Shown here in pieces: positions 46,822-53,820 of a stretch of 64,000 bases of DNA. The stretch is from Candidatus Parepulonipiscium sp. PG-Nuni2H_MBin01 (lineage in GTDB: Bacteria > Bacillota > Clostridia > Lachnospirales > Cellulosilyticaceae): positions 1-64,000 of the forward strand of contig MDJM01000078.1 of NCBI GenBank assembly GCA_001994995.1, given 5' to 3'. The notes under the pieces are model-generated. The model had not been told where the DNA came from. It worked only from the letters and a program-made list of their open reading frames with translations, and searched no databases. Position numbers and translations under genes: made by a program. Position 1 is the stretch's first letter. Every line of letters starts with the position of its first letter.

Positions 46822-48156
46822 TTAGCGCTTCAAGCTTAAAATTTCTTGAAGCATCTCGTCTGATGTAGTAATAGTTTTAGAATTTGCTTGGAAGCCACGT
46901 TGAGTTACTATCATATTAGTAAACTCTGAATTTAGGTCTACGTTTGACATTTCAAGTACGCCAGACATAAATATAGCTTCTGCCCCTATACCGTCAAAAT
47001 CACCAGAGTTAGCGGTCGCAAGGAACACGTTATCTCCGGCTTTTTCTAGGCCTGCTGCATTTTCAAATGTTGTAGTTACAATTTGGGCAAGAAGTTTTGT
47101 ATCACCATTAGAATAGTAAGCTGTAATTTTACCATCTGAACCAATATCATAACCAAGCATATCTCCTGCAGCCTTACCTGTACCCTGACCATTTACATCT
47201 CCTACACTTGAGTCTAAGCTTGTTGTAGCATTGTATTGAGTAATTCCAGTTATATCAAGATATACCATACCGTCATTACCAATTTCAGCATTAAGACTAG
47301 GACTAGCCCCAAGTAGGTCAAGACCAGCTATAGAAATTAATCCTGTAGGTTGTTCCATGTTACCATTGGAATCAAAAATAATTTCTACACTATCAGTAGT
47401 GGGTGTTCCGCCTAATGTATAGGAATTACCGTTAGTATCCGTAATGGTATTACTAGGGATATTCATTACCCACTTTACAGGATTTTCATTACCCTCATTA
47501 GGATATGCAGTAAACTCAACTTCCATACTATAGTAATTACCCAAAGAGTCATAAAAATTCATTATGGTGGTAATTGCTTTAGCTGTGTCGTCACCAGTGT
47601 AAGAGTCATCAAGATTTAAATTTCCAGTGATAGTAACATTTGTAGTAGCTTCTGGTTGAGTAAATAAATTATCTGGCGAATTAAGTACAATGTCTTGCAC
47701 TTGACCCCGAACAATTTCAGTACCAGTATCATTTGCTAACCATCCTTGGACTTTCATACCATTTGGTATAACCAGATTACCTAAATCATCTACTCTAAGC
47801 GCTGCCGCACGTGTAAAATAAGTTTGTTCTGCATCTTTAACAATAATCATCCCATCACCGTCAATCATAAGGTCAAAGGGGTTATCAGTACGCTGAGCTG
47901 AGCCTTGTGTCATTAAGATATCTATAGTAGATACATTTACTCCAAGACCAACTTGCATAGCATTTTTACCACCAAGACCAGTAGCATCACTTGCTGAAGT
48001 TGCCGATTGAACAGTTTGGGAGAATACCTCGCTAAAAGTAACTCTTTGAGATTTGTAGCCAATTGTGTTAATATTAGCTACATTATTACCAATAACATCC
48101 ATCTGAATTTGATGGGCCTGCAGGCCAGAAACACCTGAGTATAAAGAACGCATCAT
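46822..48156 (-). CDS. flgE: Flagellar hook protein FlgE, second copy
   Basis: 444 residues. 'MMRSLYSGVSGLQAHQIQMD' and 'NNVANINTIGYKSQRVTF' at the start and 'QRGFQANSKTITTSDEMLQE' at the end are the rod/hook signatures, with D1/D2 domains between. It is collinear, without gaps, with the first copy 77 bases upstream and differs mainly by conservative changes, so both can be built into a hook. GGGGGA precedes the tandem ATG codons. Confidence 0.96.
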   Translation of the reverse strand: MMRSLYSGVSGLQAHQIQMDVIGNNVANINTIGYKSQRVTFSEVFSQTVQSATSASDATGLGGKNAMQVGLGVNVSTIDILMTQGSAQRTDNPFDLMIDGDGMIIVKDAEQTYFTRAAALRVDDLGNLVIPNGMKVQGWLANDTGTEIVRGQVQDIVLNSPDNLFTQPEATTNVTITGNLNLDDSYTGDDTAKAITTIMNFYDSLGNYYSMEVEFTAYPNEGNENPVKWVMNIPSNTITDTNGNSYTLGGTPTTDSVEIIFDSNGNMEQPTGLISIAGLDLLGASPSLNAEIGNDGMVYLDITGITQYNATTSLDSSVGDVNGQGTGKAAGDMLGYDIGSDGKITAYYSNGDTKLLAQIVTTTFENAAGLEKAGDNVFLATANSGDFDGIGAEAIFMSGVLEMSNVDLNSEFTNMIVTQRGFQANSKTITTSDEMLQEILSLKR

Positions 48157-48232: not shown

Positions 48233-49567
48233 TTAACGTTTAAGCGATAAAATTTCTTGTAACATTTCATCCGAGGTTGTAATAGTTTTTGAGTTTGCTT
48301 GGAAACCACGTTGTGTAACGATCATATCTGTAAACTCAGAGTTTAAGTCTACGTTAGACATTTCAAGTACCCCAACTTGGAATATACCCTCAGCACCAAT
48401 ACCATCAAAGTCACCAGAGTTAGCGGTTGCAAGGAACACGTTATCTCCGGCTTTTTCAAGACCTGCTGAGTTCTCAAAGCTTGTTGTAACTATTTGGCCA
48501 AGTAATTTTGTGTCACCATTGGTATAGTATGCAGTAATTTTACCGTCTGTACCAAGGTCGTAACCAATCATATCCCCAGCTGCATTACCAGTACCATCCC
48601 CATTAACATCCCCAACAGTTGCATCAAGACTTGTAGTTGCATCGTATTGGGTAATACCTGTAATGTCAAGTTGAATCATACCATCATTACCAACTTCCGC
48701 ATTAAGTGGAGGGCTGGCTGAAAGTAGGTCTATACCAGTAATGTTAATTAATCCTGTAGGTTGTTCCATATTACCATTAGCATCAAAGTAAATTTCAACG
48801 CTATCTACTGTAGGAGTTCCGCCTAATGTATAAGTATTACCATTAGTATCCGTAATTGTGTTGTTAGGTAGACTCATAACCCATTTAGTAGGATTATCTC
48901 CACCTTCATCTGGATATGCTGCAAAGTTAACTTCCATAATATAGTAGTTACCTAAGGAATCGTAAAAGTTAAGATTGGTTACTATTTGTTTTGCTGTGTC
49001 ATCCCCTGTGTATGAATCGTTGAGGTTTAAGTTCCCTGTAATCTGAACATTTGTTGTAGTTTCAGGAGGTGAGAATAAATTCGATGGTGAATTAAGTACA
49101 ATATCTTGTACTTGACCACGAATAATCTCTGTACCATTATCATTAGCTGGCCACCCTTGAACTTTCATACCATTTGGTATAACTAAGTTACCTAAGTCGT
49201 CGACCCTAAGTGCACCAGCTCTAGTGAAGTAAGTCTGATCAGCATCTTTAACAATTAACATCCCATCACCATCAACCATTAAGTCAAATGGATTGTCAGT
49301 TCTTTGTGCAGAACCTTGTGTCATCATTATATCTATAGATGCAACGCTTGAACCAAGACCAACTTGCATGGCATTTTTACCACCAAGACCAGTAGCATCA
49401 CTTGCTGAAGTTGCTGACTGAATTGTTTGAGAGAATACTTCGTTAAAGGTAACACGCTGGGATTTATACCCTACCGTATTTACGTTGGCTACGTTATTAC
49501 CTATAACGTCCATCTTAACCTGGTGGGACTGAAGCCCCGACACCCCAGAAAACATTGATCTCATCAT
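48233..49567 (-). CDS. flgE: Flagellar hook protein FlgE, first copy
   Basis: 444 residues from the ATG at 49567, which has GGAGG 8 bases upstream (an earlier ATG lies inside the site). It shares the N- and C-terminal coiled-coil signatures of hook proteins ('SGVSGLQSHQVKMDVIGNN'; 'GFQANSKTITTSDEMLQE'). Its size is at the large end for the family (Salmonella FlgE is about 400). It follows flgD after a GC-rich hairpin and precedes its own paralogue. Confidence 0.96.
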   Translation of the reverse strand: MMRSMFSGVSGLQSHQVKMDVIGNNVANVNTVGYKSQRVTFNEVFSQTIQSATSASDATGLGGKNAMQVGLGSSVASIDIMMTQGSAQRTDNPFDLMVDGDGMLIVKDADQTYFTRAGALRVDDLGNLVIPNGMKVQGWPANDNGTEIIRGQVQDIVLNSPSNLFSPPETTTNVQITGNLNLNDSYTGDDTAKQIVTNLNFYDSLGNYYIMEVNFAAYPDEGGDNPTKWVMSLPNNTITDTNGNTYTLGGTPTVDSVEIYFDANGNMEQPTGLINITGIDLLSASPPLNAEVGNDGMIQLDITGITQYDATTSLDATVGDVNGDGTGNAAGDMIGYDLGTDGKITAYYTNGDTKLLGQIVTTSFENSAGLEKAGDNVFLATANSGDFDGIGAEGIFQVGVLEMSNVDLNSEFTDMIVTQRGFQANSKTITTSDEMLQEILSLKR

Positions 49568-49624
49568 AATAAATTCCTCCTTCACACACTCGCTGTCAAA
49601 TTCTAGTCAAAATCTAGTTATGCA

Positions 49625-51924: not shown

Positions 51925-52698
51925 TTAGTATATAGGTGAAATTAATCGAATAATTTGCGCCGCTGTTTCTACGGGTAACTCGTTAAGAATTGCTGATTGA
52001 CTATTTGTATCCATATTGTTAAAGATAGCTGTTACAAGGGCTGAGTCTGTGTTAACTAGTTGCTCTATAGCACTTGCAGCTTGTTTTGTGTTCATTTGAG
52101 CTATTACCGATGCATGAGATTGTTGTTCATCTGTTAACACTTTTTCACCTTTAATTTCTGCATAAATGCTTTGTGATTGCTCAGGATTTAGCTCCTCATA
52201 CCAAGATATATATAAAGATGGGTTTTGAGAAGCCACTTCGGCATTCCATGCAGCTTGCTCTGATAAAAATGCATTGTAGTTATATTCATAAGTTTGTAAT
52301 CTGTTAATTTCTGCATTTAATGTAGTTTGTGAATCAGTCAAGGTGGTAATTCTATTTTGCAAACTAGTAATTTGTGACTCTAAATCAGTTATTTCTGAAA
52401 TTAAATCTTGTTTAGAGTAATCTGCATAAGGTCCTTCATATACGAAAAATTCATTTAAATATGGTATATCTTCCACTAATTCTGCAATAAACAGATTACC
52501 TTTATTTACATATGCAATACCTCCGATTATTAAAAGCACTACTAAGAATATCAGCATTTTTTTTCTTCGTTTTTTACGCTTTTCTTTTTTTTCTTTCTTC
52601 TTTTTTTCTTTTAATATTTGACGCTCTCGTTTAAGTTCTTCGGGATCTTTAACGTTCCCTGCAGGTTTAGCCGCTGCTGGTTTGTTTTCTTTAGCCAC
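51925..52698 (-). CDS. ylxF: YlxF/MotE-like protein with an MgtE N-type domain
   Basis: 257 residues if translation starts at the GTG at 52698, which has GGGGAAG upstream and overlaps the previous gene by 8 bases. Layout: basic N-terminus (residues 20-50), one membrane helix, coiled coil (about 90-140, 'DLESQITSLQNRITTLTDSQ') and a C-terminal MgtE intracellular-N-type repeat ('AQMNTKQAASAIEQL', 'NELPVETAAQIIRLI'). Same place as Bacillus ylxF, between fliJ and fliK; related MotE stabilises the stator in alpha-proteobacteria. Confidence 0.85.
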   Translation of the reverse strand: MAKENKPAAAKPAGNVKDPEELKRERQILKEKKKKEKKEKRKKRRKKMLIFLVVLLIIGGIAYVNKGNLFIAELVEDIPYLNEFFVYEGPYADYSKQDLISEITDLESQITSLQNRITTLTDSQTTLNAEINRLQTYEYNYNAFLSEQAAWNAEVASQNPSLYISWYEELNPEQSQSIYAEIKGEKVLTDEQQSHASVIAQMNTKQAASAIEQLVNTDSALVTAIFNNMDTNSQSAILNELPVETAAQIIRLISPIY

Positions 52699-53341
52699 TC
52701 TCTTCCCCACTTTCCTGGATATAGTCAACTTTAGTTGGTGCCATCTTCATTATATAGTCAACCTTTGTGGTCTCTTTAGGTATCGCTCTTGTATTCATTT
52801 GTGTAGCTCTCACCATTTCGCTAATTTGGTCAACTCTCGTCTGTACTGCTTCATGTTCCATTATTTTTTGGGCTCTAGCTATTTGCTGAATATGGTCAAC
52901 TCGCGTTTGTACTGCTTCATGTTCCATTATTTTCTTTGCTCTAGCTACCTGCTGAATGTGGTCAACTCGCGTTTGTACTGCTTCATGTTCCATTATTTTC
53001 TTTGCTTTAGCTACCTGCTGAATATGGTCAACTCGCGTTTGTACTGATTCAGTCTCAATTATCTTTTTAGCTACTTCTTGAATAGGGTCAACAGTCGTTT
53101 GCAACGCCTCAGGCTCTATTACTTTTTTTGATACATATTGAATTTTATCAACTCTAGTCTGAACTGACTCATGAGCCATTATTTTCTTAGCAATAGTTTT
53201 TTGACTAATATCATCAACTTTAGATTGTACACACTCTTTAGCAAAGATTTTCATAGCATCTACAGCTGTAGATTCCACTGATTCTTTAGCTATTATCTCC
53301 TTAACGTCTGTAGTTAGTGGTTGTTTGGATTCTCTAGCCAT
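52691..53341 (-). CDS. 22-residue-repeat protein of unknown function in the flagellar operon
   Basis: 216 residues from the ATG at 53341 with GAGGGAG upstream. It consists of about eight tandem helical units of 20-22 residues around 'KKIMEHEAVQTRVDHIQQVA'; the central three to four are almost identical and the outer ones diverged. Each unit has an invariant V-D in 'T.VD.I'. The ends are acidic/polar ('ESGEESG'). There is no signal peptide, membrane helix or Cys pattern. I do not recognise a family. It is inserted between fliJ and ylxF and is tightly coupled to ylxF by an 8-base overlap, so a role with the export ATPase complex or stator scaffold is possible but unproven. Confidence 0.7.
   Translation of the reverse strand: MARESKQPLTTDVKEIIAKESVESTAVDAMKIFAKECVQSKVDDISQKTIAKKIMAHESVQTRVDKIQYVSKKVIEPEALQTTVDPIQEVAKKIIETESVQTRVDHIQQVAKAKKIMEHEAVQTRVDHIQQVARAKKIMEHEAVQTRVDHIQQIARAQKIMEHEAVQTRVDQISEMVRATQMNTRAIPKETTKVDYIMKMAPTKVDYIQESGEESG
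52829..53092 (-). repeat. Tandem 66-bp coding repeats
   Basis: The block GTCAACTCGCGTTTGTAC recurs at 52895, 52961 and 53027, exactly 66 bases apart, with diverged copies at 52829 and 53087 (60 bases). The repeats are in frame (22 or 20 residues). Recent unequal crossing-over or slippage is the likely cause, so copy number may vary. Confidence 0.9.
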
Positions 53342-53367
53342 AATCTCCCTCACTTTCCTCAGATATA

Positions 53368-53820
53368 TTAAGAATTGCCTTCTTCTTCACTGCTTTTAAT
53401 ATACCTATATCCAACAATCTCGTCAATTAGCTTTTGCTCTTCTTGTAACATTTCGTATTGTACTTGTTCTCTATGAATTTCCTTTAAGTTTTCTAAAATT
53501 TTTCTATCTTTCATAGCATCTACAAGATTTTCTTGCTTTTTTACTATATTTTTTTCTGCTTGCGCTACTGCTAAATGTACTTTTTCTAAGTCTTTTACAA
53601 TTTGTTTTTTGTAGTGATTAACTTGAGTAATTGCTGATGGATTAACTGCACCACTAAGCTCTTGAACTAATTGTTGTGAAAGTTCATTGTCTTTACGTTG
53701 AAGATTTACTTCTTTATTTACTAAAAAGTTTTTTTGGGCATAGGCATCGGCCAGTTCTTTCTTCCTCATTTGTTCTACATTTTTCTTAAGAGTAAGAATT
53801 GATTCTAACCTAAACTTCAC
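53368..53820 (-). CDS. fliJ: Flagellar export chaperone FliJ
   Basis: 150 residues, entirely helical with heptad pattern, as expected for the antiparallel coiled coil of FliJ that sits in the FliI hexamer. 'MKFRLESILTLKKNVEQMRK' is the usual start. The start codon is GTG with GGAGGG 7 bases upstream. A possible sigma-28 promoter lies just upstream. Confidence 0.88.
   Translation of the reverse strand: MKFRLESILTLKKNVEQMRKKELADAYAQKNFLVNKEVNLQRKDNELSQQLVQELSGAVNPSAITQVNHYKKQIVKDLEKVHLAVAQAEKNIVKKQENLVDAMKDRKILENLKEIHREQVQYEMLQEEQKLIDEIVGYRYIKSSEEEGNS

Follow-up and report, generated by a model that had tools for sequence, protein, structure and literature searches.

The genes fliJ and ylxF are normally adjacent in flagellar operons, and the locus described here raises the question of how an additional reading frame came to lie between them, and whether that frame encodes a protein with a role of its own. 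In the 64,000-nucleotide stretch of DNA that was analyzed (the window), this frame runs on the minus strand from an ATG at 53341 to a TAA ending at 52691, giving a product of 216 amino acids; we refer to it as the orphan gene. The initial annotation had reported a good ribosome-binding site and an 8-base overlap with ylxF, and both are present: the sequence upstream of the start is GAGGGAGATT-ATG, and the orphan stop overlaps ylxF, which starts with GTG at 52698, by exactly 8 nt. There was no promoter or terminator above chance level inside the region. The features of the locus, all on the minus strand, are as follows.

53368..53820, minus: fliJ, the upstream neighbor (Pfam FliJ, 4e-13)
53298..53367, minus: junction copy 1, with the orphan ribosome-binding site and start (DNA alignment to copy 2)
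52691..53341, minus: orphan repeat gene, opening with ATG, 216 codons and a stop
53246..53341, minus: two degenerate 16-residue N-terminal units, MARESKQPLTTDVKEI and IAKESVESTAVDAMKI (repeat-profile test)
52796..53245, minus: seven units of 20-22 residues with [T/S]-x-V-D (DNA and protein repeats)
52691..52795, minus: C-tail, two 11-residue TKVDYI half-repeats, ending in YIQESGEESG
52646..52723, minus: junction copy 2, with the orphan end and the ylxF ribosome-binding site and start (DNA alignment to copy 1)
51925..52698, minus: ylxF, FlgY/E-ring homologue with one transmembrane segment and an MgtE_N-like C-terminal domain (MgtE_N 1.7e-5, just short of the Pfam cut-off; PMC13023049)
50483..51832, minus: fliK, hook-length control protein (Flg_hook, PF02120, 2.4e-14)

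Comparison with related genomes confirmed that the gene is an extra one. At all of the loci that were readable at fliJ (20 in the family and 26 in the order, leaving out one family locus and three order loci that were not), fliJ is followed by ylxF without an insert, and the ylxF start lies between -29 and +96 nt relative to the fliJ stop. Because fliJ directly precedes ylxF at these loci, the insert was gained in this lineage. The family search brought up no further genome of the same genus. The earlier statement that the protein belongs to no known family also held. There was no convincing match in Pfam, NCBIfam or PHROG, no sequence or fold match in the PDB, no homologue in phages or viral contigs, and no relative in three partly overlapping sets of genomes, 295 from the order, 391 from the class and 398 from the phylum. 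The FliJ profile (PF02050), the Flg_hook domain and MgtE_N (PF03448), which does match the neighboring ylxF, were not found in the orphan, and no curated TPR-type or helical repeat family in Pfam or NCBIfam scored above cut-off. Genome-wide scans with peptide patterns of the repeats gave no match. Judged from its sequence, the orphan is a true new gene restricted to this lineage, and each of its ends can be traced to a local source.

Two database matches to the orphan were rejected as homologues, one in genome G004 (E=2.8e-6) and one in genome G007 (E=0.009), each being repetitive sequence at an unrelated locus. In G004, positions 1429-2637 of locus L002 (minus strand) encode a protein that begins like a signal peptide and continues with T/V-rich repeats (TVDNWVNVSK...ETKAVQT). 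It gave a score with the orphan as query, but its context and composition are unrelated. In G007, positions 513-2828 of locus L003 hold a long AANHETASARV-type array that is open in several frames simultaneously and is perhaps a DNA-level tandem array.

The orphan protein consists of nine units (16, 16, 22, 20, 20, 22, 22, 22 and 22 residues, counting the degenerate ones) followed by the C-tail. The initial annotation had described about eight units of 20-22 residues with an invariant T-x-V-D core. The repeats are real, but they number nine and vary from 16 to 22 residues; the core is common, with ten occurrences of [T/S]-x-V-D (eight in units and two in the tail), but it is SKVD once and is replaced by TTDV in the N-terminal unit. 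In the DNA, repeats spaced at 60-66 nt are 68-92% identical, and all differences in unit length are multiples of three. The first N-terminal unit (MARES...) matched the repeat profile weakly (P=0.011), and the second (IAKES...), with one residue deleted, scored higher than any of 2000 shuffles.

We used codon usage and the substitution pattern between units to ask whether the frame is read as protein. The mean codon log-odds of the orphan frame is 0.167, similar to the values of fliJ (0.219) and ylxF (0.194). All other frames are clearly worse, at -0.80 and -0.88 on the same strand and from -0.26 to -0.51 in antisense. Differences between adjacent units fall on codon positions 1, 2 and 3 in the proportion 29:15:46 (chi-square P=3e-4). 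Amino-acid changes are below the number expected from random substitution when six adjacent pairs are pooled (Fisher P=0.001), with no such deficit in three of the six. Several older pairs of units have synonymous sites near saturation and few amino-acid changes; for the two that begin at residues 55 and 117, pS is 0.90 and pN is 0.13. These values compare repeat units of one gene, where gene conversion and protein-based alignment can blur the result. From codon usage and the substitution pattern, we consider it probable that the orphan is translated and under selection as a protein.

What the initial annotation overlooked is that a copy of the fliJ/ylxF junction lies at either end of the gene, which seems to have been built from this junction. 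The copies (53298-53367 and 52646-52723) are 71% identical over 79 columns, with E=5.3e-4 (blastn, word size 7) when the database size is set to the 2.7 Mb genome, a scaled value and not a genome scan. Exact runs are short, and the default blastn word size misses the copy. In the core of the alignment, 39 of 50 columns are identical by our count, a score reached by none of 5000 dinucleotide shuffles, and this pairing is the best non-self placement of the core within the window.

The sequence at the 3' end of the orphan resembles the end of fliJ in related genomes. In a sister genus (g8, locus L022), fliJ ends in ...YIQRERGEDKSG* and overlaps the ylxF GTG by 8 nt; length and frame are identical to those seen where the orphan (...YIQESGEESG*) overlaps ylxF. 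The end of the orphan C-tail, YIQESGEESG, resembles this FliJ C-tail. The DNA 5' of the ylxF GTG likewise resembles the fliJ tails of L022, L005 and L008 (P=0.003-0.009 each). The shared pattern is TATATYCA..GAAAG.GG.GAAGA, and the matches are the top-scoring segments of those loci. With both of its ends matching fliJ/ylxF junction sequence, the orphan most likely arose by duplication of this junction, an origin that we consider probable from the sequence comparisons.

The inner repeats could not be traced in the same way. Compared with the two junction copies as DNA, they scored no better than 122 and 1043 of 2000 shuffles, which is not significant, and the repeat profile did not fit the N-terminus of YlxF (P=0.96). 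Because neither matched, it is the two N-terminal units that connect the junction copy with the repeats. A source in fliJ was considered for the inner repeats but was not supported: 13 of 500 shuffles did as well against whole-fliJ DNA (a long gappy alignment), 117 of 2000 did as well against the fliJ tail, and the protein profile gave P=0.57 and 0.27. An exact 16-nt match, TTTCATAGCATCTACA on the plus strand, joins 53509-53524 in fliJ and 53249-53264 in the orphan, encoding VDAMK in both; it is possibly a trace of gene conversion, or else due to chance.

The absence of detectable similarity between inner repeats and junction is what would be expected if a foreign repeat gene had been inserted at the fliJ/ylxF boundary, and flanking direct copies are an expected by-product of insertion with duplication. 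However, the start and stop codons of the orphan both lie within the junction copies, the N-terminal unit in copy 1 scores as a repeat (the unit after it clearly so), the codon usage is native, and searches of phages, viral contigs and the genome samples from order, class and phylum yielded no donor. We regard such an insertion as quite unlikely. It is also conceivable that the expansion has no function as protein and that its frame stays open only so that ribosomes can re-initiate on ylxF. This fits the retention of the exact 8-nt stop/start overlap found in the sister-genus fliJ, the orphan status of the gene, and the Leu-poor, repetitive composition with no clear amphipathic pattern of its product. 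Coupling of this kind would require the frame to be open without requiring any amino acid to be conserved, whereas units near synonymous saturation still share residues (the pS, pN and codon-position values given above), which makes neutral expansion unlikely. A role of the repeats as DNA (iterons, or regulatory or recombination sites, in a frame open by chance) could account for the conservation of GTTGAC every 60-66 nt. Against this, differences are concentrated at the third codon positions of the minus-strand frame, unit spacing across the gene varies from 48 to 66 nt, and there is no other match to the orphan gene or to the ylxF-start junction elsewhere in the genome; we consider this explanation highly improbable.

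Origin by junction duplication, the reading that we prefer, suggests the following sequence of events. A short segment spanning the end of fliJ and the start of ylxF would have been duplicated in tandem inside the flagellar operon. Copy 1 would have provided the start codon and ribosome-binding site of the orphan, copied from those of ylxF, and copy 2 would have retained the old stop/start overlap and supplied the end of the orphan, with fliJ acquiring a new end. In-frame expansion of a unit of about 20-22 codons would have followed. The orphan stop, sitting at the position of the sister-genus fliJ stop, would preserve translational coupling into ylxF. We infer the order of events and the coupling from this arrangement of stops and starts, and the growth of the repeats from a junction copy from the two N-terminal units.

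The suggestion that the units are helical is consistent with modeling. AlphaFold2, run on the single sequence, predicted two long helices, residues 13-74 and 77-185, with pTM 0.29 and 10-residue block means of pLDDT of at least 90 for residues 101 to 180. The protein has a net charge near 0, two leucines and no tryptophan. We saw no signal or transmembrane segment in its sequence, and no canonical coiled-coil or clean amphipathic or heptad periodicity. The product would be soluble, mainly alpha-helical and cytoplasmic, made together with FliJ and FlgY (YlxF).

The neighborhood suggests what such a protein might do. YlxF is now seen as the homologue of FlgY, the protein that builds the E-ring of other bacteria; FlgY is usually encoded adjoining fliJ, fliK or both, and has helical repeat (TPR-rich) partners, MotC, MotK and PflA (PMC13023049). 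The orphan resembles these FlgY/YlxF/MotE E-ring systems in lying near fliJ and fliK and in its predicted helical repeats. Unlike FlgY and its partners, it lacks a TPR match, a signal and a transmembrane segment and occurs in one genome only, and the FlgY of this locus is ylxF itself. It is like FliJ in being predicted helical, K/E/Q-rich and encoded in the same operon, with a C-tail resembling sister-genus FliJ tails, but it lacks a FliJ domain, an intact fliJ is present, and the repeat profile finds no match in FliJ (P=0.57). Because ylxF is a FlgY homologue, and FlgY is usually encoded beside fliJ or fliK, we favor a cytoplasmic accessory protein that would most likely bind a neighbor; candidates are the FliJ/FliI/FliH export complex and the basic tail that FlgY has in the cytoplasm. 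This localization, partner and function are suggested by gene position, and a flagellar function of any kind seems to us slightly less probable than the lack of one. The account as a whole, of a lineage-specific gene born from a junction, translationally coupled, with a cytoplasmic helical product that binds a neighbor on the FliJ/FlgY side, has in our estimate an even chance of being correct.

A different role had been proposed in the initial annotation, that of a scaffold or a molecular ruler with a length dependent on the number of repeats. Near-identical 66-nt units do imply a recent change in copy number, and a long helix is predicted. This proposal did not gain support, however: there is no evidence for secretion or export, FliK is present, encoded just downstream of ylxF, the mixed 16-, 20- and 22-residue units do not stay in phase along a helix, and hydrophobic residues recur with a periodicity unlike that of a coiled coil. 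We consider a ruler or scaffold very unlikely. That the fliJ-flgY translation-start region gave rise, in one lineage, to a new motor or export part with a size tunable by repeat number is a broader possibility, and an unlikely one.

To our knowledge, most new bacterial genes are orphans whose source cannot be traced. In the present case a gene junction accounts for both ends, and sister genera still have the ancestral arrangement. Should the protein prove to act in the flagellum, it would show how an old machine can gain a component from an operon boundary, in this case adjoining a recently recognized E-ring gene (ylxF/flgY). The orphan resembles bacterial orphan genes of the overprinting type (PMC4683798) in being a new, taxonomically restricted coding sequence within a pre-existing gene neighborhood, and differs from them in that it would stem from same-strand junction duplication and repeat expansion and not from a new frame of an old gene. 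Elsewhere in the window, two tandem hook-protein-like genes (46822-48156 and 48233-49585, minus strand) have 84% protein identity over 444 amino acids.
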